DNA from: Nitrosospira briensis
Lineage (GTDB): Bacteria; Pseudomonadota; Gammaproteobacteria; Burkholderiales; Nitrosomonadaceae
Length of the DNA stretch: 64,000 bases
Reading direction: 5' to 3'
Assembly (NCBI RefSeq): GCF_900115125.1
Contig: NZ_FOVJ01000001.1
Location: 343,852-407,851 of the forward strand
This document shows, in pieces, positions 1 through 47,844 of the stretch; the first letter of the stretch is position 1, and each line of letters starts with the position of its first letter. A model generated the notes under the pieces. It saw nothing but the letters and a program-made list of their open reading frames with translations, made no database searches and was not told where the DNA came from. The translations under genes and the position numbers were made by a program.

Positions 1-633
1 GAATCGGGTGAGACATTCTTTTCCTGGGCGCACCGGATGGAGAGCGCCTATTTCACCGATCTGCTGGCGGACCTCGTGGAGGTCAAGCCGGAAGAATTGG
101 CTTCGGTCTTGCGCGATCATGGAAACAACAACGATTTCAAGGTACTGCAACTGGGTGGAGGCGAGTGTGCAGGCGTGAGCCAGATAAAGATCGGTACGAT
201 TTTCTTTGAAGCCGCCCATGAGCGGAATTATCGCGATGCGCTCAAGTTTCAGACGAAATTCGCGGATTCGGTCAAGTGTGCCGAGGAGATCGCCCGTTTG
301 ATCGGCCAGGGCGTGACTGAAATGCTGGGCGGTTTGAAGCATGATGACTTGACTGCGCAGGCGGAAGAACTGCTTCGAGTACTGCCTGCCAAAGCGTATC
401 TGTCCAGGCAATTGGCCAGATTCGCGGAGGATTTTGCTAGCCCGGCCGAAGAGTTGAATGATGCTCATTTGACCGAATGGTTTTCCCGGTTGGATGCATG
501 GACGATGGAGGTTGCGGAATTCTGCCTGGATTTCGACCGTCAGCTCGATCTGGCCGGAGCGCTGCCGTCGCCGCTGCCAGCTTCAGCCAGATCGCCTGCG
601 TTTGACCCGGCGAAGTCTTCCGTCACGATCTGA
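1..633 (+). CDS. C-terminal part of a probable nitrite/sulfite reductase-like protein (5' truncated by window)
   Basis: The reading frame is already open at base 1 and runs 210 codons to the stop at 631-633, so the true start lies outside the window; the ATG at 37 is internal. The visible part is mostly helical and charged, with a short GGGECAG stretch at about residues 53-59 and a C-terminal helical region resembling HEPN-like extensions. No siroheme or 4Fe-4S cysteine motif is visible here. Its place 29 bp ahead of cysH-cysD-cysN is where betaproteobacteria usually keep the assimilatory sulfite reductase hemoprotein gene, so the call rests mainly on context. The last 25 residues are low complexity, rich in Pro, Ala and Ser. 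It could instead be an unrelated helical protein that merely shares the operon. Confidence 0.4.
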   Translation, partial: ESGETFFSWAHRMESAYFTDLLADLVEVKPEELASVLRDHGNNNDFKVLQLGGGECAGVSQIKIGTIFFEAAHERNYRDALKFQTKFADSVKCAEEIARLIGQGVTEMLGGLKHDDLTAQAEELLRVLPAKAYLSRQLARFAEDFASPAEELNDAHLTEWFSRLDAWTMEVAEFCLDFDRQLDLAGALPSPLPASARSPAFDPAKSSVTI

Positions 634-662: not shown

Positions 663-1478
663 ATGAGCCTGGATCACAAGATTTCTGAAGTGCGAGCACT
701 GTTGGATTGGGTGCAGCGGGATTATGCACCGGCCACCTTCGCTTGCAGTTTTGGCGCTGAGGATATGGTGCTGATGGATCTTATTGCACAGCATTATCCT
801 GGTATCACGGTGTTTACACTGGATACCGGACGTCTGCCTGAAGAAACCTACAGTCTCATGAGAGATGTGGCAGATCGCTACGGGATTCATGTTCCGGTCT
901 ACTTTCCCGAATCTGCCGCAGTTGAGGCCTATGTCGCGCAGAACGGACCGAACGGCTTCTATGACAGCGTGGAGTTACGAAAAAAATGCTGCCATATTCG
1001 AAAGGTGGAACCGCTGAAACGCGCGTTGCACGGCAAGCGTGCCTGGATTACGGGATTGCGCCGCGATCAGGCGCCCACCAGAAAAGAACTGGCGGTGTCA
1101 GAATTCGACGCCGGGAATGGTTTACAAAAAATCAGCCCGCTGCTGGACTGGAGCTTGTCCGATGTATGGGCTTATATCAAGCAATTCAATGTGCCGTACA
1201 GCGCGCTGCATGATAGAGGCTACACCAGCATCGGGTGCGCGCCTTGCACCCGTGCCATTACGCCGGGTGAGGAGGTTCGGGCCGGCCGCTGGTGGTGGGA
1301 AGACCCGGAAATCAGGGAGTGCGGTTTGCACCCGGACAAGCGGCGCGTCACTCCAACGGTTTTCGCCGCGGGGACGGACCGGGCTTCGGGCCAGGAAAAA
1401 GGTGGCGAAGGTGTGGAAGAAGAGGAGCACGGTGCTCTTGCTGGCGCCGCTCGTGAAACTATCAGGATTGATCAATGA
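663..1478 (+). CDS. cysH: Adenylyl-sulfate / phosphoadenylyl-sulfate reductase (CysH family, Fe-S type)
   Basis: Reduces activated sulfate (APS or PAPS) to sulfite with a thiol donor such as thioredoxin, in the cytoplasm. The PP-loop-like N-terminal domain is followed by the paired cysteines CC at residues 109-110 and GCAPC with cysteines at 192 and 195. This is the four-cysteine [4Fe-4S] signature of APS-reducing CysH proteins; the cluster-free PAPS-only enzymes of enteric bacteria lack it. The catalytic cysteine is in ECGLH, about residue 220. Most family members end close to this motif, whereas here a further 48 or so polar residues (Glu/Gly-rich) follow. The gene overlaps cysD by 4 bp (ATGA), so translational coupling is likely. 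No APS kinase (cysC) is seen in the window, which fits direct APS use. Confidence 0.93.
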   Translation: MSLDHKISEVRALLDWVQRDYAPATFACSFGAEDMVLMDLIAQHYPGITVFTLDTGRLPEETYSLMRDVADRYGIHVPVYFPESAAVEAYVAQNGPNGFYDSVELRKKCCHIRKVEPLKRALHGKRAWITGLRRDQAPTRKELAVSEFDAGNGLQKISPLLDWSLSDVWAYIKQFNVPYSALHDRGYTSIGCAPCTRAITPGEEVRAGRWWWEDPEIRECGLHPDKRRVTPTVFAAGTDRASGQEKGGEGVEEEEHGALAGAARETIRIDQ

Positions 1479-2467
1479 ACACTATGCTGAATGATATGGA
1501 AGAACTTGTTACGCCGGCTCCAGGCGTTGTTGTGAAGACCGAACCGGTAGTCATTAAACGTCCTGTTGCACGGCATTTTGGCCATCTGGATGCACTGGAA
1601 AGCGAGGCTATCCATATCATGCGGGAGGTTGCAGCCGAATGCGCCAACCCGACCCTGCTATTCTCCGGCGGAAAGGATTCGATCGTACTGCTGCGCCTGG
1701 CGGAAAAAGCGTTTCGCCCTGGACGTTTTCCATTTCCGTTGATGCATATCGATACCGGCCATAATTTTCCCGAAGTAATCGAGTTCCGTGACCGTCGCGT
1801 CAAGCAATTGGGTGAGCGGCTGATTGTGCGCAGCATGGAAGACTCCATCAGGCAGGGAAGAGTGGTTTTACGTTCCGAGAATCAGAGCCGCAATCCATTC
1901 CAGTCAGTGACATTGCTGGATGCAATCGCCGAGTTCCAGTTCGATGCCTGCATCGGAGGTGCGCGCCGGGATGAAGAAAAAGCGCGTGCCAAGGAACGCA
2001 TATTTTCTTTCCGCGATGAATTCGGCCAATGGGATCCGAAGAACCAGCGTCCCGAATTATGGGATATTTACAATACCAGAGTGCATCCTGGAGAAAATAT
2101 TCGCGTGTTTCCGATCAGCAACTGGACCGAACTCGATGTGTGGGAATACATTGCGCGTGAGGAACTGGAAGTGCCCCATATCTATTTTGCCCATAAGCGG
2201 GATGTAATCCGGCGTGGTACCGGGCTTTTACCGCTATCCCACCTGGTTCAGCCGACCGAGGGGGAAAAAGTGGAGAATCTCATGGTGCGCTTCCGGACAG
2301 TAGGTGACATGAGTTGCACCTGCCCGGTAGAATCCCCCGCAGCCAGCGTCGGCGAAATCATTGCCGAAACCGCAATCACCCGAATTACGGAGCGCGGCGC
2401 TACGCGCATGGACGACCAGACATCGGAGGCATCGATGGAGCGGCGCAAGAAAGAGGGATATTTTTAG
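1475..2467 (+). CDS. cysD: Sulfate adenylyltransferase subunit 2 (CysD)
   Basis: Catalytic subunit of ATP sulfurylase, which forms APS from ATP and sulfate, working with the GTPase CysN. The PP-loop motif SGGKDS lies at residues 64-69 and the protein ends in the family-typical RRKKEGYF. The 330-residue length is slightly longer than usual (about 300) because of the N-terminal 25 residues; ATGs at 1484 and 1493 are alternative starts. The ATG at 1475 is preferred because it overlaps the cysH stop. The 150-bp gap to cysN shows no gene or clear terminator, so cysHDN probably form one transcript. Confidence 0.95.
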   Translation: MNTMLNDMEELVTPAPGVVVKTEPVVIKRPVARHFGHLDALESEAIHIMREVAAECANPTLLFSGGKDSIVLLRLAEKAFRPGRFPFPLMHIDTGHNFPEVIEFRDRRVKQLGERLIVRSMEDSIRQGRVVLRSENQSRNPFQSVTLLDAIAEFQFDACIGGARRDEEKARAKERIFSFRDEFGQWDPKNQRPELWDIYNTRVHPGENIRVFPISNWTELDVWEYIAREELEVPHIYFAHKRDVIRRGTGLLPLSHLVQPTEGEKVENLMVRFRTVGDMSCTCPVESPAASVGEIIAETAITRITERGATRMDDQTSEASMERRKKEGYF

Positions 2468-2617
2468 GCGTATCTTCATGGACCATGATTTCTGATGGGG
2501 CTTGTTCAGGAGTCGGGAATTCGCTCTTGCGCAATTGCACAACATCGAGGTCTCATCTCGCGCTAGCCCGGTTTACGGGATGTCGCGAAACCAGAATTTT
2601 TCCAGAAAGAGTATTAA

Positions 2618-3919
2618 ATGTCAGCTATTGAAAGTATTTCTTTTGATCATTCGGAATTGTTGCGTTTCATTACCGCGGGTAGTGTGGACGACGGCAAAAG
2701 CACGCTGATCGGGCGTTTGCTGCACGACTCGAAATCCATCTTCGAAGATCAACTGAGCGCTATCACCCATACTTCGCAACGGCGCGGGTTCGAAGCCGTC
2801 GACCTGTCCCTGCTTACTGACGGCTTGCAAGCGGAGCGCGAGCAAGGAATCACCATTGATGTAGCCTATCGTTACTTCGCCACGCCCAAGCGCAAATTCA
2901 TCATTGCCGACACCCCGGGTCATGAGCAATATACCCGTAACATGGTTACCGGAGCCTCCACGGCAAATCTTGCCATCATACTGATCGATGCGCGCAAGGG
3001 TGTGCTTACCCAGTCGCGCCGCCATGCCTATCTCGCAAGCCTCGTGGGTATTCCACATCTGGTGGTGGCGGTCAACAAGATGGATCTGGTGGATTATTCC
3101 CGGGATGTATTCGAGCGGATTTGCGAAGAATTTCACGTGTTTGCCGCCGGCCTCCATCTCAAAAATATTGCGTATATCCCGATGTCAGCCCTGAATGGCG
3201 ATATGGTTGTCGAGCGTGGAGACAAGCTTGACTGGTACGACGGAATGACTCTGATGGATCTGCTGGAGAACGTTCCTGTCGACCATGACATCAATCTCGA
3301 AGATTTCCGCTTTCCCGTGCAGTTGGTTTGCCGTCCGCAAACAGAGGAATTACGCGATTTTCGCGGCTATATGGGACGCATTGAATCAGGGTCCATCAGG
3401 GTAGGCGACAGCGTACAGGTACTGCCTTCGGGACTGACTTCGCGTATCAAGGAAATTGTCACTTATGAAGGGAATGTAGATGAGGCGATCGCTCCGCAAT
3501 CAGTGACACTGGCGATCGAAGACCATCTGGATATATCACGGGGCGACATGCTGGTGAAGATTGCCCAAATCCCGCAGGTCACAAAGGAGTTTAATGCCAT
3601 GCTGTGCTGGCTGTCCGACCAGAACCTGGACCCGCGGCGAAAATACCTCATCAAGCATACGACGCGGACCGTGAAGGCAATGGTGTCCCGCATAGATTAT
3701 CGCCTGGATATCAACTCGCTGAACCATGAACCGGCGGAAACGCTGAAAATGAACGATATCGGACGGGTATCGCTAAAGGTGCATCAGCCGCTGGTATGGG
3801 ATTCGTATCACCGTAATCATGCCACCGGCAGCTTTATCGTCATCGACGAAGCCAATAACAATACCATCGCGGCCGGCATGATCTGCGCGGCAAAGGATCA
3901 GGCTGGGAGTTGTGACTAA
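2618..3919 (+). CDS. cysN: Sulfate adenylyltransferase subunit 1 (CysN), GTPase
   Basis: Elongation-factor-like GTPase subunit of ATP sulfurylase; GTP hydrolysis drives APS synthesis by CysD. The P-loop SVDDGKST is at about residues 22-29, the G3 motif DTPGHEQYTRNM near residue 98 and NKMD near residue 154. At 433 residues the protein lacks the C-terminal APS kinase domain found in CysNC fusions. Together with the [4Fe-4S]-type CysH and the absence of cysC nearby, this supports a pathway from APS directly to sulfite. The start ATG is preceded by an AGAAAGAG-like ribosome binding site. A strong hairpin terminator follows at 4013-4042. Confidence 0.95.
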   Translation: MSAIESISFDHSELLRFITAGSVDDGKSTLIGRLLHDSKSIFEDQLSAITHTSQRRGFEAVDLSLLTDGLQAEREQGITIDVAYRYFATPKRKFIIADTPGHEQYTRNMVTGASTANLAIILIDARKGVLTQSRRHAYLASLVGIPHLVVAVNKMDLVDYSRDVFERICEEFHVFAAGLHLKNIAYIPMSALNGDMVVERGDKLDWYDGMTLMDLLENVPVDHDINLEDFRFPVQLVCRPQTEELRDFRGYMGRIESGSIRVGDSVQVLPSGLTSRIKEIVTYEGNVDEAIAPQSVTLAIEDHLDISRGDMLVKIAQIPQVTKEFNAMLCWLSDQNLDPRRKYLIKHTTRTVKAMVSRIDYRLDINSLNHEPAETLKMNDIGRVSLKVHQPLVWDSYHRNHATGSFIVIDEANNNTIAAGMICAAKDQAGSCD

Positions 3920-4012: not shown

Positions 4013-4042
4013 AAAAGCGGCCTTGCCGCTTTTATATTTTTT
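4013..4042 (+). terminator. Rho-independent terminator after cysN
   Basis: A perfect 8-bp stem (AAAAGCGG at 4013-4020 and CCGCTTTT at 4026-4033) closes a 5-base loop and is followed by ATATTTTTT. It lies 94 bp past the cysN stop and about 130 bp before the next gene, so it should end the cys operon transcript. A second overlapping pairing, CTTGCC (4022-4027) with GGCAAG (4043-4048), is possible and would compete with the first. Confidence 0.75.
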
Positions 4043-4171
4043 GGCAAGGAAAAAGCACAAACTGAAAATGGGTATAAAACTGAGGTCCAGCTCGCTTTTG
4101 GATGATTGCCGAGGGCCGATCACTTTCTTTTTGCCTCTTCTTTTGATCTTATACTTTTTGATGACGTTATC

Positions 4172-7100
4172 ATGACAAGTTTACAATTGGCGCCCAACCC
4201 CACCGACGCGGCCGCTGGGCCTTCTCCCATCCTTGGGTTTGGCATGGCCTTCGCCGATCTGTATCGCCGCGAGGGGCTGGTGAAACTGGATCAGGCGTTT
4301 CTCGATTTTCTTGGCGAAGGAGAACCCCCGCTGCGTACCAGCCTGGATCGCGCTCGTGCCTATCCCGATAGCCTCGACCGCAAGGCAGAAGCAGCGCTAC
4401 TGATCGAGATTGCGCCCTGGATGGAAGATTTTATTGCCAGGCTGTTCGGTATCGAGAAAGAGGTCCAGGTACTTGCCTCCCGCCATCATCAGCTTGCTCC
4501 TCTTTATTCCTGCAAAAGACAGTTCGTGCAACGCCGGGCGATGAGCAAGGTAAGCGAGGCGGAGGCGACCGCAGCGGATGGGATTGCGCTGGAAGAAAAA
4601 CTGGCCGCCGATTTCGAGACGCCTTTCTCCGAGCTGACTTTCGCAACCAAAGTCTCGGAGTGGTTATTGGATGAAAATGCGAACGAAGAGCGAATCAGGG
4701 TGGCATTGCTATATGCGGCCTGGGCGCTCAAGACTCCTCAGGGGAGAGAACGCAACAAGGACGGGGTATTGTTCAAAGCACCTGCCAAGCTTGATTTCCT
4801 GAAGCTCTTGTCGACGGATACCGACAACGCAGCGGGTTACACCGTTCACCGCCTTCACCATATACGCCGCCGGGAAGGCTTCGCGCTGACCGACCCGGGA
4901 ACCGACCTGGTGGGCGCCCTGGATGAGGCGAATTACTGCATCTGGTGCCATGAGCAAGGAAAAGATTCGTGCTCGAAAGGACTGAAGGAAAAACCGAAAA
5001 CTCCTGAAGAGGTGCCGTCTTTCAAAAAAAGCCAGCTCGGTGTCCTCCTGACGGGTTGCCCGCTGGAAGAGCGCATATCCGAATTTCACAAACTCAAGAC
5101 CCAGGGCGTGGCGGTCGGCGCCTTGGCCATGATTGTCGTGGACAACCCGATGTGCGCGGGGACCGGGCACCGTATTTGCAATGATTGCATGAAATCCTGC
5201 ATCTATCAGAAACAGGAACCGGTAGATATTCCACAGGCTGAGACGCGCACCCTGAAGGACATATTGGAGCTGCCCTGGGGTTTCGAAATCTATAGCCTTC
5301 TCACCCGGTGGAATCCCCTGGATTTGCGCCGGCCGGTGCCGAAGGCGCCAACAGGCCGGAAAGTATTGGTAGTGGGCATGGGCCCGGCAGGGTATACCCT
5401 GGCGCATCATTTAATGAACGACGGTCATACGGTAGTCGGTATCGATGGCCTCAAGATCGAGCCATTGGCGCCGGAGATCTCCGGAGTGAACCAGCAGGGA
5501 GAGCATGTTCCATTCCGCGCTATCCGCGACGCCGATGAAATTGCCGAGGATCTGGATGAGCGCATGCCTGGCGGGTTTGGCGGCGTGGCCGAATACGGCA
5601 TTACAGTTCGGTGGGACAAAAATTTTCTCAAGTTGATCCGTCTGCTGCTGGAGCGGCGGGAAGAGTTTGCTCTTTTCGGCGGGGTCCGCTTTGGCGGAAC
5701 GCTTACCGCTGACGATGCCTTCGCCCTGGGATTCGATCATGTGGCCCTGGCTGCGGGTGCGGGCCGTCCCACCGTGCTGGATTTACCCAATGGCCTGGCG
5801 AGAGGAGTTCGTGCCGCATCAGATTTTCTGATGGCGTTGCAGTTGTCGGGCGCGGCCCAGACGAACTCTGTCGCCAACATGCAATTGCGCTTGCCAGTGG
5901 TTGTGATTGGCGGTGGCTTGACGGCTATCGATACCGCAACCGAAGCGCTTGCCTATTACCCGGTACAAGTGGACAAGTTTCTTCGCCGTTATGAAATTTT
6001 GACGGCGGTGCAGGGCGAAGCAGCCATCCGCGGAGCATGGGATGAGGAAGAGCGGGAAATTGCCGAAGAATTTCTTGATCATGCTCGTGCCATCCGTGCC
6101 GAACGCAAGGAAGCGGAGCGGGAGGGACGGGCGCCGCACGTATTGGAGCTGCTTCAATCCTGGGGTGGCGCCACAATTGCTTACCGGAAACGGCTCATCG
6201 ACAGCCCCTCCTATACGCTTAATCATGAAGAAGTCGAGAAGGCACTGGAGGAAGGCATCTGGTTTGCCGAGGGCCTCACGCCGGTGCGGGTGGACACTGA
6301 TAAGTGGGAACATGCGAAGGCCGTGCAGTTCGCAGTGCAGGTTCTGGATGAAACCGGGTCATGGCAAAAAACGGGACAGGCGACCTTGCCGGCCCGCGCT
6401 GTTCTGGTTGCGGCCGGGACTCAGCCCAACACAGTTCTCGCCAGAGAAGACGATAAAAATTTCAAGCTGAATGGCCGCTACTTTGCCGCTTGCGATGAAA
6501 ACGGCGATCCCGCCAGTCCGCCGCGGGCGAACCCCAAGCCTGTAACGCCGAGCGTCTTGCTGAGCCGCAATGGTGATGGGCGCTTCATCAGCTTCTTCGG
6601 TGATCTGCACCCCTCCTATTCCGGCAATGTCGTAAAGGCAATGTCCAGCGCCAAGCAGGGTTATCCAGTAGTAAGCCGGGTGCTTGAACGTCTGGCACCG
6701 GCATCCACGAAACCAGCCTGGCTGTTTTTTGCCGAAATGAACGGACAGCTGCGCGCTACGGTGCATAAAGTGGAACGGCTTACACCGAACATCATAGAGG
6801 TGGTTGTGCATGCGCCAATGGCGGTGGAACGCTTCCACCCCGGCCAGTTCTATCGCTTCCAGAATTTTGCAACGCTTGCCACCACCGCCGGCGACACCAA
6901 ATTGGCGATGGAGGGCATTGCCCTTACGGGAGCCTCGGTTGACATGGCGCGCGGGCTGGTATCGCTGATTGCCCTGGAAATGGGAGGATCAGCGGATCTG
7001 TGCGCAAAGCTCAATCCCGGCGATCCGGTAGTATTGATGGGTCCCACTGGTACGCCCACCGAAATTCTGCCGGATGAAACAGTCGTGCTGGTAGGGGGCG

Positions 7101-7723
7101 GGCTGGGCAACGCGGTGTTATTTTCAATCGGTGCGGCAGCGCGAGCAGCAGGATCGAAGATTTTGTATTTCGCCGGGTACAAGAAGCTGATAGACCGCTA
7201 CAAAGTGGCTGAAATCGAGGCCGCCGCGGATATAGTGGTCTGGTGCTGCGATGAAGCTCCCGGCTTCAAACCTTCGCGGCCGGACGATCTCAGTTATGTG
7301 GGCAATATCGTGGAGGCCATGGCTGCTTATGGAAGCGGCGCGCTGGGTCCTCAGAAAATTCGCTTGTCTGACGCCGATCGTATCATTGCCATCGGCTCCG
7401 ACAGGATGATGGCGGCGGTGGGCGCTGCCCGGCATGCCAAACTTCAACCTTATCTGAAAACAGATCATTTCGCGATTGGCTCCATCAATTCGCCCATGCA
7501 ATGCATGATGAAAGAGATTTGCGCTCAGTGTCTGCAACCACATAAGGATTCGGTAACGGGGGAAATTACTTATGTGTTTTCCTGCTTCAACCAGGATCAA
7601 CCCCTTGATCAGGTTGATTTCGGGGGGCTGGCCTCGCGTTTACGCCAGAACAGCGTCCAGGAGAAGTTGACTACTCGCTGGATTAGTCATTGCCTGAAAG
7701 AAACGAACGAAGTCGGGGCGTGA
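4172..7723 (+). CDS. Giant Nfn/GltD-like iron-sulfur flavoprotein, NAD(P)-dependent (single-chain fusion)
   Basis: A 1183-residue soluble protein. Residues 1-240 match no family I recognise. Two Cys-rich segments follow (YCIWCHEQGKDSC near 253 and MCAGTGHRICNDCMKSC near 327), as expected for the [4Fe-4S] region of GltD or NfnB. A GltD-like FAD-binding loop (VVGMGPAGY) starts near 398 and an NAD(P)-binding loop (VIGGGLTAIDTA) near 577. The C-terminal third resembles a ferredoxin-reductase/PyrK/NfnA module: HPGQFYRFQNF near 888, VGGGLGNA near 971, then a terminal Cys cluster, MQCMMKEICAQC, near 1109. The order corresponds to NfnB followed by NfnA in one chain. The likely role is electron transfer among NADH, NADPH and an Fe-S partner, and the transhydrogenase genes next door fit this. 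Exact reaction unknown. The ATG at 4172 was chosen; a TTG at 4106 would add 22 unlikely residues. Confidence 0.75.
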   Translation: MTSLQLAPNPTDAAAGPSPILGFGMAFADLYRREGLVKLDQAFLDFLGEGEPPLRTSLDRARAYPDSLDRKAEAALLIEIAPWMEDFIARLFGIEKEVQVLASRHHQLAPLYSCKRQFVQRRAMSKVSEAEATAADGIALEEKLAADFETPFSELTFATKVSEWLLDENANEERIRVALLYAAWALKTPQGRERNKDGVLFKAPAKLDFLKLLSTDTDNAAGYTVHRLHHIRRREGFALTDPGTDLVGALDEANYCIWCHEQGKDSCSKGLKEKPKTPEEVPSFKKSQLGVLLTGCPLEERISEFHKLKTQGVAVGALAMIVVDNPMCAGTGHRICNDCMKSCIYQKQEPVDIPQAETRTLKDILELPWGFEIYSLLTRWNPLDLRRPVPKAPTGRKVLVVGMGPAGYTLAHHLMNDGHTVVGIDGLKIEPLAPEISGVNQQGEHVPFRAIRDADEIAEDLDERMPGGFGGVAEYGITVRWDKNFLKLIRLLLERREEFALFGGVRFGGTLTADDAFALGFDHVALAAGAGRPTVLDLPNGLARGVRAASDFLMALQLSGAAQTNSVANMQLRLPVVVIGGGLTAIDTATEALAYYPVQVDKFLRRYEILTAVQGEAAIRGAWDEEEREIAEEFLDHARAIRAERKEAEREGRAPHVLELLQSWGGATIAYRKRLIDSPSYTLNHEEVEKALEEGIWFAEGLTPVRVDTDKWEHAKAVQFAVQVLDETGSWQKTGQATLPARAVLVAAGTQPNTVLAREDDKNFKLNGRYFAACDENGDPASPPRANPKPVTPSVLLSRNGDGRFISFFGDLHPSYSGNVVKAMSSAKQGYPVVSRVLERLAPASTKPAWLFFAEMNGQLRATVHKVERLTPNIIEVVVHAPMAVERFHPGQFYRFQNFATLATTAGDTKLAMEGIALTGASVDMARGLVSLIALEMGGSADLCAKLNPGDPVVLMGPTGTPTEILPDETVVLVGGGLGNAVLFSIGAAARAAGSKILYFAGYKKLIDRYKVAEIEAAADIVVWCCDEAPGFKPSRPDDLSYVGNIVEAMAAYGSGALGPQKIRLSDADRIIAIGSDRMMAAVGAARHAKLQPYLKTDHFAIGSINSPMQCMMKEICAQCLQPHKDSVTGEITYVFSCFNQDQPLDQVDFGGLASRLRQNSVQEKLTTRWISHCLKETNEVGA

Positions 7724-7779
7724 TTTGCCCGATCAGCTGTTTTCATCAATCCAGGCAATGCATCAGGGCCGGGTTCATT

Positions 7780-7785
7780 TATAAT
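7780..7785 (+). promoter_or_regulatory. Possible -10 element upstream of pntAA
   Basis: TATAAT, identical to the sigma-70 -10 consensus, sits about 100 bp before the pntAA start. No good -35 hexamer lies 16-18 bp upstream, so the assignment is weak. Confidence 0.3.
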
Positions 7786-7798
7786 CCGGGCTTCGTGA

Positions 7799-7835
7799 TG
7801 AAGTGGCCGCCATAGAGGTAGCGCCGGCCACTTCA
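7799..7835. repeat. Perfect 11-bp inverted repeat in the pntAA leader
   Basis: TGAAGTGGCCG (7799-7809) pairs exactly with CGGCCACTTCA (7825-7835) around a 15-base spacer. No T-run follows, so it is not a standard terminator. It lies between the possible -10 element and the ribosome binding site of pntAA, and could act as an operator or a leader hairpin. Confidence 0.6.
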
Positions 7836-7883
7836 ACAGCCTACGGAACAATAATCATATCGGAAACATAAGGGGGAATACCA

Positions 7884-9011
7884 ATGCATATAGGGGTACC
7901 CGCAGAGATCCGCGGGGGAGAGACCCGGGTTGCGGCCACGCCCGAGACGGTGAAGAAATTTACCGCCAACGGTTTGAATGTCGTCCTGGTACAGTCCGGG
8001 GCGGGAGCCGGCGCCAGTATACCGGATGATGCCTACCAGGCCGCCGGTGCAAGCATCGTAGCGAACGCGGCAGACCTTTACGGTCAATCCCGGATCGTGC
8101 TTAAGGTGCGAGGTCCGGAGCCCGATGAGCTTGCGCTGCTACGCAAGGACGCTGTACTGCTGGGATTGCTCTCCCCACATCAGCTGGAAGGCATTGAAGC
8201 GCTGGCTCGCCACGGCGTTACCGCCTTCTCCATGGAAAAACTGCCGCGTATCTCCCGTGCCCAGAGCATGGATGTGCTGTCGTCCCAGGCGAACATCGCC
8301 GGCTACAAGGCGGTGTTGATGGCGGCCAATGTCTATCAGAAATTCTTCCCCATGCTGATGACGGCGGCAGGCACGGTAAAGGCCGCGAGAGTCTTGGTCC
8401 TGGGCGCCGGGGTTGCCGGTTTGCAGGCGATTGCCACGGCCAAGCGCCTGGGAGCAGTGATCGAGGCGTTCGATGTGCGTCCCGCGGCAAAAGAACAAGT
8501 GGAAAGCCTGGGCGCCAAATTCGTGGAGGTTCCGCTGAGCGATGAAGAAAAGGCGCAGGCGGAGACAGCAGGCGGTTATGCCCGTGAAATGTCGGACGAT
8601 TACAAGCGCCGCCAGGGGGAATTGGTACACCAGCGCGCCGCCGCCGCCGATATCATCATTACCACCGCGCTGATCCCCGGCCGGCCGGCCCCGGTTCTAA
8701 TCAGGGAAGAAACCGTTCAGGCCATGAAACCCGGATCGGTTATCGTCGACATGGCGGTAGAGGCGGGCGGCAACTGCCCTTTGTCTGAATTGGACAAGAT
8801 CGTAGTGAAGCATGGCGTGCATCTCGTCGGTATTTCCAATCTGCCGGGGCTGGTAGCGGCTGATTCAAGCGCCCTTTATGCCCGTAATTTGATGAATTTC
8901 CTCAACCTGATGCTTGATGCGAAGAGCGGAGAATTCAAAGTGAACCGTGAAGATGAAATCATAGCCGGAACGCTGGTCTGCGCAGATGGGGAAGTCATCG
9001 GGAAAGGCTGA
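7884..9011 (+). CDS. pntAA: NAD(P) transhydrogenase subunit alpha part 1 (NAD-binding dI)
   Basis: Soluble NAD(H)-binding subunit of the proton-translocating transhydrogenase, which exchanges hydride between NADH and NADP+ using the proton gradient. The 375-residue protein begins MHIGVPAEIRGGETRVAATP, shares the fold of alanine dehydrogenase, and has a Rossmann loop VLGAGVAGLQAIATAKRLG at about residues 172-190. The alpha subunit is split into PntAA and PntAB as in Rhodospirillum, unlike the single PntA of E. coli. A strong ribosome binding site (AAGGGGGA) precedes the ATG. It is followed by pntAB after 109 bp and then by pntB, so the three genes very likely form one operon. Confidence 0.95.
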   Translation: MHIGVPAEIRGGETRVAATPETVKKFTANGLNVVLVQSGAGAGASIPDDAYQAAGASIVANAADLYGQSRIVLKVRGPEPDELALLRKDAVLLGLLSPHQLEGIEALARHGVTAFSMEKLPRISRAQSMDVLSSQANIAGYKAVLMAANVYQKFFPMLMTAAGTVKAARVLVLGAGVAGLQAIATAKRLGAVIEAFDVRPAAKEQVESLGAKFVEVPLSDEEKAQAETAGGYAREMSDDYKRRQGELVHQRAAAADIIITTALIPGRPAPVLIREETVQAMKPGSVIVDMAVEAGGNCPLSELDKIVVKHGVHLVGISNLPGLVAADSSALYARNLMNFLNLMLDAKSGEFKVNREDEIIAGTLVCADGEVIGKG

Positions 9012-9120
9012 GAAGCGGCGGCAAGCAGTGAAACAGGAAAAAGCTGAAAATTTTTTTGCGGCGCTTTCACTGTGGACAAGCCAGATTATTAATAAAAGTT
9101 AAGGATTAGAAGGAGCGATC

Positions 9121-9426
9121 ATGATTGGCGAAATTGACCCAACCATTATTAATCTCACCGTATTCGTGCTGGCGGTGTTTGTCGGCTATCACGTGGTGTG
9201 GAATGTGACACCGGCCTTGCATACGCCGCTGATGTCAGTCACCAATGCAATTTCCGGCATCATTCTGGTGGGCGCCATGCTGGCTGCCGGGCCGGCGGAA
9301 ACGGACTGGGGCGTCTGGTTGGGAGCGGTGGCAGTAACGCTGGCCGCCGTCAACGTCTTCGGCGGCTTTCTTGTCACGCAGCGTATGCTGGAAATGTTCA
9401 GAAAAAAAGATAAAAAAGGAAGCTAG
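9121..9426 (+). CDS. pntAB: NAD(P) transhydrogenase subunit alpha part 2 (membrane)
   Basis: A 101-residue integral membrane subunit with three predicted transmembrane helices, spanning roughly residues 8-25, 36-55 and 60-85. It supplies part of the proton channel (domain II) together with PntB. The C-terminus is basic and cytoplasmic in character ([10 protein letters not shown]). A ribosome binding site AGAAGGAG lies just before the ATG, and pntB begins 3 bp past the stop, which suggests coupled translation. Confidence 0.95.
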
Positions 9427-9429
9427 TCA

Positions 9430-10809
9430 ATGTCGGCAAATTCAGTCGCACTTGCGTATCTTATCGCATCGGTTTTCTTTATTCTGGCGCTAAAAGGCTT
9501 AAGCTCGCCAGTCACCGCTCGCCGCGGTAATTTGTTTGGCATGGTAGGAATGGCTATTGCCGTCGTCACCACGCTTACCATTACCAAAAACTGGGCCTTG
9601 ATAGTCGGTTGTATCGCGCTGGGCGGCGCAATAGGCGCTGTCGTCGCACGGCGCGTGCAAATGACGGCAATGCCCGAGCTGGTTGCTTTCATGCACTCGC
9701 TGGTCGGCTTGGCGGCTGTATTCATCGCGATCGCCGCCGTCAACAATCCCGCTTCATTCGGCCTGCCGGCGCCGTTGCCGATGGGCAGCAAACTGGAATT
9801 GTTTCTCGGTACATTCATTGGCGCCATGACCTGGTCGGGCTCGGTGATCGCATTCCTGAAGTTGTCCGGCCGCATGAGCGGTGCGCCCATTACCTTCGGT
9901 GGGCAACACATGGTCAACCTTGCTCTCGCGATCGTGATGGTGGGATTCGGACTGTGGTTCTTCTTCAGCGAGACCACCAACTGGACAGCTTTTGCCACGA
10001 TGTCCGCCATTGCCTTTATTCTGGGTTTTCTTATTATCATCCCGATCGGCGGCGCGGACATGCCCGTGGTCATTTCCATGCTTAATTCATATTCCGGCTG
10101 GGCGGCCGCGGGAATAGGATTCTCGCTCGGGAACCCCATGCTCATTATCGCCGGTTCGCTGGTCGGCAGTTCTGGCGCAATTCTCTCTTACATCATGTGC
10201 AAGGCGATGAATCGCCCGTTTCTTTCGGTCATACTGGGCGGGTTCGGGGGTGAGACGGGAACGGCCGCGGCAAGTGACGGGACGCAAAAAACCTATCGCA
10301 GCGGTAGCGCGGAGGATGCATCGTTCATGATGGGTAATGCCGACAGCGTGATCATTGTGCCCGGCTACGGGTTGGCCGTGGCCCGCGCACAGCATTCTGT
10401 CAAGGAACTGGCTGAAAAACTGCATGAAAAAGGAGTGAATGTGCGTTTCGCCATTCATCCGGTAGCGGGGCGGATGCCGGGGCATATGAATGTGCTGTTG
10501 GCGGAAGCAGAGATACCTTATGAGCAGGTGCTGGAGATGGATGAAATCAACAGTGATTTCTCCAATACCGATGTGGTGCTCGTTCTCGGCGCAAACGACG
10601 TCGTGAACCCGGCGGCCAATGTTCCGGGCAGTCCGATTTATGGCATGCCTATTCTGGATGCGCACAAGGCGCGCACGGTCATGGTTGTCAAACGCAGTAT
10701 GGCGGCAGGTTACGCGGGCCTCGACAACGACTTGTTCTATATGGACAAGACCATGATGGTATTTGGCGACGCCAAGAAAGTGGTCGAAGATATGGTCAAG
10801 GCGTTGTAG
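9430..10809 (+). CDS. pntB: NAD(P) transhydrogenase subunit beta (PntB)
   Basis: A 459-residue subunit holding the rest of the membrane domain (eight or nine helices over the first 270 or so residues) and the NADP(H)-binding domain III at the C-terminus. The domain III signature is VPGYGLAVARAQH near residue 312, followed by HPVAGRMPGHMNVLLAEA and the VLGANDVVNPAA segment. The length is normal for the family. It produces NADPH from NADH for biosynthesis, which an autotroph needs in quantity. Confidence 0.96.
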   Translation: MSANSVALAYLIASVFFILALKGLSSPVTARRGNLFGMVGMAIAVVTTLTITKNWALIVGCIALGGAIGAVVARRVQMTAMPELVAFMHSLVGLAAVFIAIAAVNNPASFGLPAPLPMGSKLELFLGTFIGAMTWSGSVIAFLKLSGRMSGAPITFGGQHMVNLALAIVMVGFGLWFFFSETTNWTAFATMSAIAFILGFLIIIPIGGADMPVVISMLNSYSGWAAAGIGFSLGNPMLIIAGSLVGSSGAILSYIMCKAMNRPFLSVILGGFGGETGTAAASDGTQKTYRSGSAEDASFMMGNADSVIIVPGYGLAVARAQHSVKELAEKLHEKGVNVRFAIHPVAGRMPGHMNVLLAEAEIPYEQVLEMDEINSDFSNTDVVLVLGANDVVNPAANVPGSPIYGMPILDAHKARTVMVVKRSMAAGYAGLDNDLFYMDKTMMVFGDAKKVVEDMVKAL

Positions 10810-10989
10810 TGTTTCACGATGACAAGCCACGCAGGAAAACAGGCCGGGTCGCAGAAGTGTTGGCTTGTCCGGCTTCTTCCCCCGCCAAAATTCTTGGGAG
10901 CTATTCGAGCCGCTGCGAAGCATGGCTGATGCGCAAGCAAAGAGTCAGGAAAACGACTTTCCACCCATAGGAGTACCGGTGGACCAAGC

Positions 10990-11760
10990 GTGAGCGCAAT
11001 CGAGGGTTTTGCCGAGGAAACGTTTGCGGCAGATGGCCATACGTTCAGGCTCTTTCGAAAAGGAGACGGACCCGGCGTTATCCTCCTGCATGAACTGCCG
11101 GGCCTCACTCGGGAAACTGTCGAGCTTGCGGAGTGGATCGCGGACCATGGTTTCCATGTCGTCATGCCGCTCTTGTTCGGCAGCCCCCTTCAGAATCCGG
11201 CGCTCGGCCTCATGAAGGCGCCCTTCACGTGCGTTCGAAAGGAGTTCAATAATTTCGCAGCCGGTAAATCCAGCGCCATCACGACGTCGCTGCGGGCATT
11301 GTGCCGAAAAGTGCATGCCGAGCGCGGGGGGGTTGGCATAGGCGCGATAGGCATGTGTTATACCGGAGGTTTTGTTTTCGCAATGATGCTGGAAGCATCG
11401 CTCCTTGCACCGGTAGCCGCCCAGCCCAGTCTTCCGTTATTTCAACCCGAATCGCTCGATGTCGAGCCGGAAATACTCGCATTCGCCTCAAGCCGCGAAG
11501 ATACGATGTCATTGCTTGGACTCCGCTTCAAGGATGATGGCCGGTGTCCAGCGTCACGATTCGAGCGGCTGGAAAAATCGCTCCAAAACCGCACGGGATC
11601 AGCAGAGCCGCGCTTTCGCTCTATAACAGTGCCGGGCAAAGGACATTCAACCCTGACGTTCGAATACGAGAAAGCGCTTAGCGAGGGAATCGATACCAGG
11701 GAGCAGGTGCTCCAGCACCTGCGCGCACAGTTGCTTGATGCGAACAGCTCCACATCCTGA
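10990..11760 (+). CDS. Dienelactone hydrolase family protein
   Basis: An alpha/beta hydrolase of 256 residues in the dienelactone hydrolase group. The nucleophile is a cysteine, C123 in the GMCYTGG elbow, as in true dienelactone hydrolases. The acid is probably the Asp in SSREDTM, and the histidine is H219 in KGHSTL. The N-terminal half carries ILLHELPGL, which forms the oxyanion region. The substrate is unknown. The start is a GTG at 10990 with a weak upstream purine stretch. It stands alone, 180 bp after pntB and 232 bp before ald. Confidence 0.85.
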   Translation: MSAIEGFAEETFAADGHTFRLFRKGDGPGVILLHELPGLTRETVELAEWIADHGFHVVMPLLFGSPLQNPALGLMKAPFTCVRKEFNNFAAGKSSAITTSLRALCRKVHAERGGVGIGAIGMCYTGGFVFAMMLEASLLAPVAAQPSLPLFQPESLDVEPEILAFASSREDTMSLLGLRFKDDGRCPASRFERLEKSLQNRTGSAEPRFRSITVPGKGHSTLTFEYEKALSEGIDTREQVLQHLRAQLLDANSSTS

Positions 11761-11992: not shown

Positions 11993-13114
11993 ATGCTGGT
12001 TGGATTACCCAAGGAAATCAAGGATCACGAAAACCGTGTCGGCCTTACGCCAAACACAGTCAGAGCCCTGACACGGCGCGGGCATAAAGTACTCGTCCAG
12101 AGCGGGGCGGGAGAAGGCAGCTACCTTTCGGATGCTGAATATGAGTCGGCTGGCGCCACCATTGTTCCTCACGCTGACGACGCCTGGGCGGCGCAGTTGA
12201 TCGTTAAAGTCAAAGAGCCGACTCCGGCTGAATACCGTTACCTGCATCGGGACATCATTCTTTTCACTTATCTTCATCTGGCTTCAGACAGGCCTCTTGT
12301 CGATGCTCTGCTGAAGAGCGGAGCCACAGCCATAGGCTATGAAACGGTCCAGGCTGAAGACGGGAAATTACCTCTTTTGACGCCCATGAGCGAGGTGGCC
12401 GGACGCATGGCTACCCAGATCGGGGCAACCTATCTGCAAAAAACGCATGGCGGCCGCGGTGTATTGATGGGTGGCGTTCCCGGTGTTGCTTCTGCTAATG
12501 TCGCGATATTGGGCGGTGGTATCGTAGGTACGAATGCCGCCCGTGTCGCCGTTGGGTTAGGTGCACAGGTTACTGTGCTGGATGTGAGTCATGATCGCCT
12601 GAAATATCTGGATGATATTTATCGCGGACAACTGCAGACCCGGTTCAGCGATGAATATAATATCGAAGAGGCGGTCTACGAGGCAGATCTGGTAATCGGA
12701 GCAGTATTGATTCCGGGCGGCCGGGCGCCGTGGCTGGTTACAGCGGAAATGTTGCCACGGATGCGAAAAGGAGCGGTGATTGTAGATGTAGCGGTTGATC
12801 AGGGTGGATGCGTGGAAACAACCCGGCCTACCACTCACAGCAATCCGACCTATGAACTTGAAGGCGTGGTGCATTATTGTGTCGCCAACATGCCGAGCGC
12901 CGTCCCGCGCACCAGTACCTTCGCACTTAATATCCAGACAGCGGTTTATACCCTGCAGTTGGCGGATGAGGGCTTGAATGCCTTGCAAAAAAACCGTGCC
13001 CTGCAATACGGCCTCAACATCCACGGCGGATCGATAACCTATCCTGCTGTCGCAGAGGAATTTGATATGAAATGCATAGAGCCGCTGCAGGCATTGGGCC
13101 GGCGAATTGAATAA
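11993..13114 (+). CDS. ald: Alanine dehydrogenase
   Basis: NAD-dependent enzyme that interconverts L-alanine with pyruvate and ammonia. The 373-residue length and the start MLVGLPKEIKDHENRVGLTP are standard. The catalytic region TYLHLASD (His near 96) and the NAD-binding loop AILGGGIVGTNAARVA near 170 are intact. In an ammonia oxidiser it could serve ammonia assimilation or alanine catabolism. A T9 run sits 40 bp upstream, after a weak hairpin, and may be a leader element. The next gene starts 22 bp downstream and could be cotranscribed. Confidence 0.95.
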   Translation: MLVGLPKEIKDHENRVGLTPNTVRALTRRGHKVLVQSGAGEGSYLSDAEYESAGATIVPHADDAWAAQLIVKVKEPTPAEYRYLHRDIILFTYLHLASDRPLVDALLKSGATAIGYETVQAEDGKLPLLTPMSEVAGRMATQIGATYLQKTHGGRGVLMGGVPGVASANVAILGGGIVGTNAARVAVGLGAQVTVLDVSHDRLKYLDDIYRGQLQTRFSDEYNIEEAVYEADLVIGAVLIPGGRAPWLVTAEMLPRMRKGAVIVDVAVDQGGCVETTRPTTHSNPTYELEGVVHYCVANMPSAVPRTSTFALNIQTAVYTLQLADEGLNALQKNRALQYGLNIHGGSITYPAVAEEFDMKCIEPLQALGRRIE

Positions 13115-25139: not shown

Positions 25140-25472
25140 ACGTTTGAATACGGTTAATCCTCTTCTCGCATATGGCCCCGCATACGCCGCGCTTTCAATC
25201 CTCAGATTCAAGCACATCTTCATCGCGTCCCGTCTACCTGACAGGCCAAGCCCAATTTAACCGACAGCATTACGCATCGTGAAAGGAAAGAATTCTCACC
25301 CGCGATAACGCAACTCCAGGCGCTTATTGCCCCCCTGTTGTGCCTTTTAAGCCGTGGCGATCAATAGCCTTGCTTTTTAAAAAATCTAATCTATTTTTAA
25401 TAATGTCGCCTTACGCTGCCGCGAGAAGAATTCATGAATAGCCAAGGCCTCATAATAATTAAGGAGATAGAG
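25140..25472. other. Gene-free stretch ahead of the PEP-CTERM repeat protein
   Basis: No convincing coding frame. The last 110 bp are AT-rich with several A and T runs, which would suit a promoter, but no paired -35/-10 elements are convincing. The ribosome binding site TAAGGAGATAGAG at the end decides the downstream start codon. Confidence 0.5.
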
Positions 25473-27413
25473 ATGAAAAATACGAAGAAAATTTATCTAG
25501 CTAAAAATATCAAGCCAGCCCAAGGTTATTTCCGGGTATTGCCAATCGCAGCAGCACTGGCCGCCTCCGGCTTCATTCAACCCGCTTTTGCTGTGGACCG
25601 TACGTGGTTTGGCGGTAATGGTGACTGGGAACTCAATACCAACTGGTCACCTAGCGGTGTGCCGGGTAATGGGGATAAGGGAATCATCAACAGCGGCAAT
25701 TCGACACTTTCTTTTAATTCGGGGATTGCCGGTCTAGATTTCTTTGGCGGAAGCCTCCGCGGCGCTGGTGATTTGGCGGTAAGCGGGCTAACCACTTTCA
25801 CGGGTGGGCAGATTGGTGGTGATGGCGGCGATGTGATTGCCAATGGCGGGCTCACCATCAGCGGAGCGGCCGAGAAAACCTTGGGTTACTTTAACGGTCC
25901 GGTCTCAAGTGGCATTGTCAACAATGGTACCGCTACCTGGACTGGTGCTGGCAACCTGGACAACCAGAACAGCGGACGCTTCACCAATAGCGCCAACGGC
26001 AACCTGAATATTCAGACCGATGCGGATTTTCTCAATGGTACTCTGGTTAACCAGGGGACGCTGACCAAATCGGTTGGCGCGGCCGACGGCTCGGACAAGA
26101 CGGTAATCAGCGGCGTATTCGAGAATTCAGGCTCGGTCAATGTACAGCAGGGCACACTTTCCATCATTGGAAGCGGGACGCATACAGGCAGCTTTACCAG
26201 TAGCCCGGATAGTTGGATCGAGTTTGCGGCGGGTTTTAATCGCGCGCAGCAGCTAAACGCGGGCGCAAGCGTTACAGGCAACGTTCGCATGATTGACACT
26301 TCTGGTGGAACATTTGTCAATAGCGGCGCCACTTATGATGCCACTCGCACCGAGATTGTTGCTGGCGGCAGGCTCAGCTTTACTGAGCCAAGCCAGACGG
26401 CAAATACGGACACGCTCAGTGTATCTGGAGGCGCTCTCCGCGGCGCTGGTGATTTGGCGGTAAGCGGGCTAACCACTTTCACGGGTGGGCAGATTGGTGG
26501 TGATGGCGGCGATGTGATTGCCAATGGCGGGCTCACCATCAGCGGAGCGGCCGAGAAAACCTTGGGTTACTTTAACGGTCCGGTCTCAAGTGGCATTGTC
26601 AACAATGGTACCGCTACCTGGACTGGTGCTGGCAACCTGGACAACCAGAACAGCGGACGCTTCACCAATAGCGCCAACGGCAACCTGAATATTCAGACCG
26701 ATGCGGATTTTCTCAATGGTACTCTGGTTAACCAGGGGACGCTGACCAAATCGGTTGGTGCGGCCGACGGCTCGGACAAGACGGTAATCAGCGGCGTATT
26801 CGAGAATTCAGGCTCGGTCAATGTACAGCAGGGTACGCTGGAAGTCACCCGAGCGTTCAATAATCAAGGCGTGATCAACGTTGCTACAGGAGCGATATTC
26901 CACGGCAATAATGGGAATTTTGCGAATGACGGAATCCTTCAAGGCAACGGAACGATTCAAACCGAAGCCAACAACGACCTGATCAATACCGGCGAGATCA
27001 ACCCTGGCGACTCCGTCGGTCACCTTACTATCGACGGTGATCTGAATCAGGCTTCAGGCGGTGTAATCAACTTCGAACTAGCCAGTCTGAGCAGCTTTGA
27101 TCAGCTGACAGTTACCGATGATGTAACACTAGGCGGCGAGATTGCAATATGGAATCTCGGCTACACGCCCGTGGCCGGGGATAGCTTCGTGGTAGCGACT
27201 TTCGATGAACGCGCCGATACGAGGTTCTCATCCTTCAGCGTGAACGGGTTCAACCCGGATCTTTTCAAAGTTCAGTACCACGATCACGATGTCACGGTGG
27301 CAGTGATACCCGAGCCCGAGCAATACCTGATGCTGCTTGCCGGCCTCGGCCTGATGGGCGTGGTGGCTCGCCGCCAGCGGAATGGCATTCGGGGGTGCGA
27401 TGAAGCTGTTTAG
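25473..27413 (+). CDS. PEP-CTERM surface protein with near-perfect internal duplication
   Basis: A 646-residue exported, Gly/Asn/Thr-rich beta-structured protein. The ATG at 25473 is chosen over one 13 codons upstream because TAAGGAGATAGAG precedes it. An extended signal sequence ends near AFAVD. The N-terminal mature part has the TWFGGNGDWELNTNWS pattern found in autotransporter-like and PEP-CTERM repeat proteins. Residues 95-227 and 322-454 are nearly identical. The C-terminus is a classic PEP-CTERM signal: VIPEPEQYLMLLAGLGLMG, then RRQR. It is probably exported, sorted by exosortase and displayed on the surface or in the matrix. No catalytic domain is seen. A stem-loop follows the stop. 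Confidence 0.85.
   Translation: MKNTKKIYLAKNIKPAQGYFRVLPIAAALAASGFIQPAFAVDRTWFGGNGDWELNTNWSPSGVPGNGDKGIINSGNSTLSFNSGIAGLDFFGGSLRGAGDLAVSGLTTFTGGQIGGDGGDVIANGGLTISGAAEKTLGYFNGPVSSGIVNNGTATWTGAGNLDNQNSGRFTNSANGNLNIQTDADFLNGTLVNQGTLTKSVGAADGSDKTVISGVFENSGSVNVQQGTLSIIGSGTHTGSFTSSPDSWIEFAAGFNRAQQLNAGASVTGNVRMIDTSGGTFVNSGATYDATRTEIVAGGRLSFTEPSQTANTDTLSVSGGALRGAGDLAVSGLTTFTGGQIGGDGGDVIANGGLTISGAAEKTLGYFNGPVSSGIVNNGTATWTGAGNLDNQNSGRFTNSANGNLNIQTDADFLNGTLVNQGTLTKSVGAADGSDKTVISGVFENSGSVNVQQGTLEVTRAFNNQGVINVATGAIFHGNNGNFANDGILQGNGTIQTEANNDLINTGEINPGDSVGHLTIDGDLNQASGGVINFELASLSSFDQLTVTDDVTLGGEIAIWNLGYTPVAGDSFVVATFDERADTRFSSFSVNGFNPDLFKVQYHDHDVTVAVIPEPEQYLMLLAGLGLMGVVARRQRNGIRGCDEAV
25755..26152 (+). repeat. 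398-bp direct repeat, copy 1
   Basis: Identical to 26436-26833 except for one base that I can see (GTTGGCGCG here, GTTGGTGCG in copy 2). The offset is 681 bp, a multiple of three, so the repeat and any deletion between copies stay in frame. It codes for about 132 residues. Confidence 0.95.
26436..26833 (+). repeat. 398-bp direct repeat, copy 2
   Basis: Second copy of the 398-bp unit within the PEP-CTERM protein gene. The sequence diverges sharply at both ends, which places the boundaries precisely. The 283 bp between the copies is unique. Confidence 0.95.
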
Positions 27414-35167: not shown

Positions 35168-36987
<1,820 letters not shown>

Positions 36988-36995
<8 letters not shown>

Positions 36996-37359
36996 TCCCT
37001 TGGATGAAAAGCGCCGGGGAGGTAAACCTGTAGCGGATGAGCCGGAGTTAAGCCGTCTCGTGGGAGCCAGGGCAAAGCGCAAACTAAAGGCGCAACGGGA
37101 ACAAGGGCATATCAGGCGGACGGTCTGGTCCGGGTTGAGCATGATCGGGCTGGTCGGGTGGTCGGTGGTCGTGCCAACACTGCTTGGCGCAGCGCTCGGC
37201 GTCTGGCTTGATCGGCGTCATGCCATGAGTCATTCCTGGACACTGACGCTGCTGTTTGCCGGACTGCTCATCGGTTGTTTGAATGCCTGGCATTGGGTTG
37301 TGAAAGAAGATAGAGAAACCCATAAGCAACAAGGGCAACAGGAGGATCGCGATGAATGA
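36988..37359 (+). CDS. atpQ: N-ATPase assembly protein AtpQ (AtpI-like)
   Basis: A 123-residue membrane protein with a charged N-terminal 47 residues and two transmembrane helices (about 50-70 and 83-103), typical of AtpQ, the N-ATPase counterpart of AtpI. The gene starts with GTG within the end of atpC and overlaps atpR by 8 bp. AtpQ and AtpR are found only in N-type operons and mark this operon as such. Confidence 0.85.
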
Positions 37360-38546: not shown

Positions 38547-38567
38547 AACAAAACCGAAGGAGAGATT

Positions 38568-38849: not shown

Positions 38850-38852
38850 TTC

Positions 38853-47843: not shown

Positions 47844-47844
47844 T

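Follow-up and report, generated by a model that had tools for sequence, protein, structure and literature searches.

A single-chain Nfn-like flavoprotein encoded upstream of the transhydrogenase genes in Nitrosospira briensis and its relatives in other genomes

In a stretch of 64,000 nucleotides of the Nitrosospira briensis genome (the window; all coordinates are positions within it), the genes for the proton-translocating transhydrogenase PntAB are preceded by a gene for a flavoprotein of 1183 residues. A GltD/NfnB module and a NfnA/PyrK module are predicted to be joined in this chain behind an additional N-terminal domain, and all Fe-S ligands expected of the two modules are conserved. The flavoprotein and its relatives (hereafter the family) are best read as single-chain NAD(P)H-ferredoxin oxidoreductases of the Nfn type, which may bifurcate electrons. 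Gene order, ligand conservation and co-occurrence were observed directly, and the folds were predicted.

Results

The flavoprotein gene (4172..7723, forward strand) is an open frame from an ATG at 4172 to the stop at 7723; an alternative in-frame TTG at 4106 would make the protein 22 residues longer. The closest named match was from Nitrosovibrio sp. Nv4 (94% over residues 1-1183). The frame was kept in 33 of the 41 genomes searched, including that of N. briensis itself (3.23 Mb), and its matches contained no internal stops, indicating that it is not a chance frame. Pfam assigned Pyr_redox_2 to residues 397-608, and Fer4_20 matched residues 294-357 below threshold (22.2 vs. 25.8 bits). The best NCBIfam model was NF005128/PRK06567, an uncharacterised equivalog labelled as glutamate synthase subunit beta, which aligned residues 21-725, including the N-terminal domain, to model positions 3-687 with 778.4 bits. 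Its curated cut-off of 1072 bits was reached neither by the flavoprotein nor in any of 299 genomes of the phylum or 150 genomes of the order.

The AlphaFold2 model of the flavoprotein (58 sequences) had a mean predicted local distance difference test score (pLDDT) of 85.3 and a predicted template modelling score of 0.88, with pLDDT values below 50 at residues 1-17, 333-335, 470-478, 530-534, 1107-1116, and 1180-1183. Fold comparisons were made with this predicted, cofactor-free model. The region from residues ~200-229 to ~843 was most similar to the NfnI large subunit (NfnI-L) of P. furiosus (Z 23.6, root-mean-square deviation 2.9, 443 residues, 25% identity), followed by GltD (2vdc_G, Z 23.5), Xfn/NfnII (5vj7_A, Z 22.7), and DPD (Z ~20). 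The C-terminal residues 856-1174 matched T. maritima NfnA (4yry_C) with Z 13.2 over 257 residues, and Foldseek also agreed with an Nfn fold (5jca_S, E 3.5e-17). Sequence and predicted model therefore agree with the earlier note on this DNA, which had described the protein as a GltD/NfnB-like and a NfnA/PyrK-like module. On the forward strand, the first module would comprise a two-[4Fe-4S] domain (residues ~229-394; 4856..5353), with clusters assigned by analogy with DPD and GltS and an insert of ~24 residues before C296, and a domain for flavin adenine dinucleotide (FAD) and NADPH (~395-843; 5354..6700) with a helical insert at ~600-663. The second, with sites for FAD, NAD(H), and a [2Fe-2S] cluster, would span residues ~856-1174 (6737..7693).

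The ligands were compared across 101 aligned family proteins (that of the window and those of 100 loci), some rows of the alignment being copies of one gene. C256, C259, C267, C296, C336, C339, C343, and E357 were identical in 101/101 proteins, and C1111, C1117, C1120, and C1138 were invariant in 100/100 rows that reached them. All 12 expected Fe-S ligands were thus kept, and the cofactor sites, on whose completeness the earlier note had made its proposal depend, are complete in sequence. The first eight follow one another as the eight ligands of the GltD-like class do and, by analogy with DPD, are predicted as a set to bind two [4Fe-4S] clusters. According to the accessible text of PMC8097209, one DPD cluster is ligated by a Gln where GltS has a Glu, which is in line with E357. 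By sequence, the first three cysteines align weakly to NfnB. The FAD and NADP(H) site of Nfn is present in the GltD-like module by predicted model and motifs, namely GxGPAG (402-407), GGGLT (580-584), and YRKR (671-674), of which R672 is present in all proteins and R674 in 98/101. Likewise, the sites for the FAD, NAD(H), and [2Fe-2S] cluster of Nfn are present in the PyrK-like module by model and motifs, with a deviating flavin motif; its NAD motif is GGGLG (975-979), and GGGxG was found in nearly all family proteins. The nucleotide motifs as a whole were kept in nearly all of the 101 proteins. L126 and L133, the most divergent pair of the family, have lost some glycines of the NAD motif in the NfnA-like part and perhaps represent, judging from their sequences, a non-bifurcating branch similar to NfnII.

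The N-terminal domain (residues ~20-228; 4229..4855, forward strand) was found only inside the family in the sample searched. Modelled alone (292 residues), the N-terminal part was all-helical, with high confidence at ~20-195. The earlier note had left the first 240 residues unassigned, and no Pfam family was found in them, nor in the N-terminal domain of 37 members, which gave five single-member weak matches (E 0.016 or worse); on the other hand, the region lies within NF005128/PRK06567 (below cut-off) and, because that model aligns from residue 21, is part of a family already on record, though an uncharacterised one. None of the 21 PDB matches that Foldseek returned at E <= 10 (best 1.6) reached E <= 0.001, and VIA-align gave no convincing one (best Z 3.3); such missing matches do not establish a new fold. 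A profile of this region, with at most ten first-look candidates scored per genome, matched one site in each of 15 of the 298 Pseudomonadota genomes searched. These were exactly the 15 genomes with the family, and each match lay in the open frame of the family protein. The search thus recovered family members only, and the domain is private to the family in the sampled genomes. Ferredoxin docking, dimerisation, and cluster shielding are candidate roles.

Downstream of the flavoprotein stop, after 160 bp, the forward strand carries pntAA (7884..9011; Pfam AlaDh_PNT_C, E 9.3e-70), pntAB with the 4TM region (9121..9426; Pfam, E 3e-39), and pntB (9430..10809; Pfam, E 5e-192), all of them also matched in NCBIfam. 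The position of a fused Nfn-like gene directly before these three genes was correctly recognised in the earlier note. A gene that we take to encode an alanine-dehydrogenase-like protein (11993-13111) lies 1.2 kb past pntB and shows ~31% identity to pntAA. Upstream, also on the forward strand, the window begins with the 3' part of a nitrite/sulfite-reductase-like gene (702 aa; 1..633), the start of which lies before the window, followed by cysH, cysD, and cysN (663..3919); cysN was identified by Pfam and NCBIfam, and the other two are presumably cysH and cysD. The flavoprotein start lies 252 bp past cysN, and this gap contains an intrinsic-terminator-like hairpin of 9 pairs with a T run (4013..4033, forward strand; AAAAGCGGCCTTGCCGCTTTT, then ATATTTTTTG), and the terminator scan found no such site between the flavoprotein gene and pntAA in the window. 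Because the built-in scan reported fewer sites (4) than shuffled sequences did (7.0), only this one strong hairpin is used as an argument. A hairpin without a T run at 7802-7833 (AAGTGGCCG...CGGCCACTT), in the gap 5' of pntAA, was spotted by eye.

All 20 same-genus loci fetched (23 genomes searched) had cysN upstream and pntAA downstream. Our own scan, run without a shuffled control, placed a terminator-like site between cysN and the flavoprotein gene in 11/20 of these loci and between the flavoprotein gene and pntAA in 1/20; a site 5' of pntAA was also present in L022, L065, and L082, the latter two from the Nitrotoga clade. A single cys-Nfn-pnt operon is doubtful in view of the terminator-like hairpin after cysN, and going by such sites, co-transcription of the flavoprotein gene in this genome is likelier with pnt than with cys.

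The family was present in 50 of 150 genomes of the order and in 15 of 299 genomes of the phylum, and is also carried by Candidatus Nitrotoga. The 80 contig loci fetched were the best-scoring of 587 relatives, and some of the stretches end just past the gene. In 24 of these 80 best-scoring loci pntAA was located downstream, with one small gene in between in four of the 24 (L031, L033, L035, and L049); pnt adjacency is thus not conserved across the family. Neighbour contexts were derived from our own gene calls and clusters, and part of the names were profile-tested. The earlier note had suggested a possible Fe-S partner; none is encoded between the flavoprotein gene and pnt, but ferredoxin genes (FdxA, RnfB-type) were located at most two genes away in 10/100 loci, which belong to some other lineages and occupy at least three separate positions on the tree. 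An RnfB-type ferredoxin was directly downstream in L050, L072, L075, L080, L084, L085, and L095 (L085 profile-tested), and FdxA was directly upstream in L093, L130, and L135 (two of them profile-tested). As a hint at the partner, this neighbourhood is suggestive only. In L054 (615-7702) and similar loci, a recurrent betaproteobacterial operon stands upstream of the flavoprotein gene. Its PRK08275 fumarate-reductase-like flavoprotein and its FdxA were both profile-tested; presumably it also encodes an ATP-binding cassette (ABC) transporter, a small protein of the Fer4 kind, and a DUF971-like protein.

Genes for 2-oxoacid:ferredoxin oxidoreductase were convergent with the flavoprotein gene in the sister loci L121 and L122. 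This enzyme was detected in only 6 of 16 chosen genomes, among them none of the five Nitrosomonadaceae and neither of the two Nitrotoga genomes, which rules it out as a general partner. In L117, a cysI-siroheme synthase-cysHDNC run ends 5 bp upstream of the flavoprotein gene. Many loci had none of these contexts (ferredoxin, oxidoreductase, cys), and the neighbours that we take to be eno, folD, pyrD, and pyrG look like plain synteny.

Co-occurrence tests were incompletely corrected for ancestry and not corrected for the number of tests. Among the order genomes, PntB was present in 43/50 with the family and in 65/100 without it (Fisher p 0.007). In contrast, RnfD above cut-off was found in 7/50 vs. 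39/100 (p 0.002), and Rnf or Nqr in 8/50 vs. 43/100 (p 0.001); within PntB-positive genomes the Rnf contrast was weak (4/43 vs. 17/65, p 0.045). At the phylum level PntB occurred in 15/15 family-positive genomes and in 263/299 overall, and because it is so widespread its co-occurrence with the family is uninformative there. The co-occurrence with pntAB that the earlier note had proposed to survey therefore appeared in the order and showed no excess over background in the phylum. The N. briensis genome had no RnfD/NqrB match, and Rnf was likewise unmatched in the remaining four genomes sampled from its taxonomic family; one FNR-type NAD_binding_1 protein was present in N. briensis.

Elsewhere in the window, an ATP synthase cluster (35171-41292) encodes, in this order, beta, epsilon, two small proteins, a, c, b, and alpha; beta, c, and alpha were matched in Pfam, the names of the other subunits are presumptive, and the cluster appears to resemble the N-ATPase type. 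A Ku gene is followed by a LigD gene with phosphoesterase, ligase, and C-terminal polymerase domains (46995-50391), and a protein of 659 residues with a PEP-CTERM motif is encoded at 25434-27410.

Discussion

In the proposed mechanism, NADPH would reduce the FAD in the GltD-like module. From there, one electron could reach ferredoxin via the two [4Fe-4S] clusters, and NAD+ could receive another by way of the [2Fe-2S] cluster and the second FAD. Ferredoxin is probably the partner of the flavoprotein, whereas the chances that both electron arms are in use appear evenly balanced, and a circuit with PntAB is a tentative proposal that we consider doubtful. Nitrosospira is obligately aerobic and Nitrotoga oxidises nitrite; in a respiring cell, PntAB drives NADH + NADP+ -> NAD+ + NADPH by the proton-motive force. 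PntAB could thus use the proton-motive force to hold NADPH high, and the Nfn-like protein would spend NADPH on ferredoxin; together, with the Nfn-like protein working in the direction of bifurcation, they would form a proton-motive-force-driven NADH:ferredoxin reductase, Rnf-like in net effect. Consumers of the reduced ferredoxin might include the neighbouring sulfite reductase, whose ferredoxin-type resemblance lies below all cut-offs. In the accessible text of PMC5861303, the Nfn reaction is given as 2 Fd(red) + NADH + 2 NADP+ + H+ <-> 2 Fd(ox) + NAD+ + 2 NADPH (Fd, ferredoxin) and is described as near equilibrium in cells.

NfnAB/NfnI of T. maritima and P. furiosus (4YLF, 5JCA) shares with the flavoprotein both modules, the positions of the Fe-S ligands in the GltD part, and the NADPH and NAD(H) motifs. 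In the flavoprotein, however, the large and small parts are fused, an extra N-terminal domain of ~228 residues and inserts before C296 and at ~600-663 are present, the flavin motif of the NfnA part has no arginine, and the hosts are aerobes. Its [2Fe-2S] ligands are four cysteines, whereas the NfnA set includes an Asp ligand. NfnII/Xfn (5VJ7) shares the predicted fold and the cofactor ligands. The NADH site of NfnII is reported to be obstructed in the accessible text of PMC8097209, and NfnII is an example of a similar but non-bifurcating fold; in contrast, most members of the present family retain the NAD motif.

The nearest published relative in layout, as far as the accessible text describes it, is Pattern C, one of four Nfn layouts (Liang et al., 2019, PMC6405883), which is fused with a C-terminal NfnA part, uncharacterised, longer than other fused Nfn, and found in Actinobacteria, Alpha- and Gammaproteobacteria. 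The order of NfnB before NfnA in one chain is shared with the flavoprotein. For Pattern C, a length ~200 residues above that of the clostridial fusion (~757 aa, from a gene of 2,274 bp) is described, whereas the flavoprotein exceeds that fusion by ~425 residues. It scored 78 bits with PRK12779, which is equated with Pattern C by inference alone, vs. 778 bits with PRK06567. In the accessible parts of a genome survey, Nfn was reported in 397 genomes, all but one from anaerobes, and bifurcating enzymes other than Fix were near completely absent from aerobes (Poudel et al., 2018, PMC6085437). The NfnL value of 2e-96 in Table 1 of that survey, if taken as an E-value threshold, would probably miss the single-chain family. 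No description of the single-chain family was found in the literature covered, mostly its open-access part, and none on PRK06567.

Several observations weigh against a bifurcating enzyme working with PntAB. Identity to characterised Nfn is ~18-26%, so activity is not safely transferable. The flavin motif of the NfnA part has no NfnS arginine (RIPLT in NfnS, GIALT here; G915 in 99/101 proteins), and the stretches with pLDDT below 50 include some near two cluster-ligand stretches, where the model is least certain. The 10/100 loci with ferredoxin neighbours stand without a matched control. Adjacency to pnt was restricted to two clades, Nitrosomonadaceae and Nitrotoga with its kin, and unseen outside them in the fetched loci; on the tree, from a quick short search with SH-aLRT (Shimodaira-Hasegawa-like approximate likelihood ratio test) support only, Gallionella and others without pnt adjacency separate the two. 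It was also absent in several Nitrosomonas, with eight such loci all having a genomic pntB (downstream sequence covered 8 kb in six of them and ~1 kb in L036, and the contig ends at once in L026). Furthermore, the Pnt contrast was not significant within Rnf-negative genomes (39/43 vs. 48/61, p 0.12). At the level of taxonomic families (144 genomes in 51 families, scored by majority rule), the associations weakened to p 0.035 for Rnf/Nqr and p 0.06 for Pnt; shared ancestry may explain part of them, because Rnf/Nqr and Pnt were themselves anti-correlated by taxonomic family (p 0.013). Four family-positive genomes had neither PntB nor Rnf/Nqr, three of them 68-87% complete and one 98% complete.

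An Nfn-fold NADPH:ferredoxin reductase that does not bifurcate, as in NfnII/Xfn, with an NfnA part that is structural or serves another acceptor, is a rather unlikely alternative, yet the strongest of those considered. It would account for the very similar fold (5vj7_A, Z 22.7), the deviating flavin motif of the NfnA part, and the lost glycines of L126 and L133, but not readily for the GGGxG of the NAD site and the [2Fe-2S] cysteines, all of which the main family keeps. The view of the earlier note, one redox-balancing unit with PntAB, would make the flavoprotein a soluble NADH/NADPH transhydrogenase or a regulator. Both nucleotide sites are present, the adjacency to pntAA is real, and 19/20 same-genus loci had no terminator-like site in between; however, the adjacency is limited to two clades and 24 of the 80 best-scoring loci, L065 and L082 carry a terminator-like site before pntAA, PntB co-occurrence at the phylum level is not above background, and the two [4Fe-4S] clusters would be left without a clear role. 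We regard this explanation as very unlikely; redox balancing is possible, and ferredoxin reduction is the more specific reading. Least credible of all is a fused small subunit of the glutamate synthase type that serves another oxidoreductase, as in GltD, AegA, and DPD. The GltD fold matches as well as NfnI-L (2vdc_G, Z 23.5) and the NCBIfam label points the same way, but the same chain includes a second complete flavin module, and no GltB-like partner was recognised among the listed neighbours, for which no GltB profile search was made.

The neighbouring cys genes raise a further explanation, distinctly improbable in our estimate, in which the flavoprotein takes the place of CysJ and is devoted to supplying assimilatory sulfite reductase with electrons. 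Its gene follows cysH-cysD-cysN in most Nitrosomonadaceae loci, and in the distant genome G103 it starts 5 bp after the cysNC fusion that ends a cysI-siroheme synthase-cysH-cysD-cysNC run (no separate CysJ search was made there). N. briensis itself had no CysJ match (TIGR01931, six-frame search including the flavoprotein gene, E 1e-40), and the best-scoring models for its reductase were those of ferredoxin-nitrite reductase, with scores far short of the cut-offs. However, most loci outside Nitrosomonadaceae have no cys genes nearby, and in the window the terminator-like hairpin stands between cysN and the flavoprotein gene. Within the same taxonomic family, Nitrosomonas HPC101, G400, and G442 keep the gene with CysJ within ~5 kb. 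Across the order, CysJ was found in 6/50 genomes with the family and 8/100 without it (p 0.55), a count that uses 14 of 18 matched genomes and leaves out four weak ones (E ~1e-42 to 1e-45), all family-negative. Since CysJ coexists with the flavoprotein in several Nitrosomonas-type genomes and no anti-correlation was seen, replacement of CysJ was rejected as the main role. HPC101 has CysJ and a CysI-type gene upstream and still retains the flavoprotein gene, which suggests that sulfite reduction is probably not the only job of the flavoprotein.

An Nfn-type NAD(P)H-ferredoxin oxidoreductase thus remains the best reading. A family with every expected Fe-S ligand in 50 of 150 genomes of the order, including ammonia oxidisers, differs from the published picture of Nfn as almost confined to anaerobes, and it offers a conserved N-terminal domain without a known fold match. 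If the flavoprotein bifurcates, this would explain the supply of reduced ferredoxin without Rnf, and the two-enzyme circuit of PntAB and Nfn becomes testable. The boldest form of the proposal, which we hold to be unlikely at present, is that aerobic nitrifiers and their relatives bifurcate electrons, with one-chain Nfn and PntAB turning the proton-motive force into reduced ferredoxin in place of Rnf; if true, it would overturn the view of Nfn as essentially an enzyme of anaerobes.

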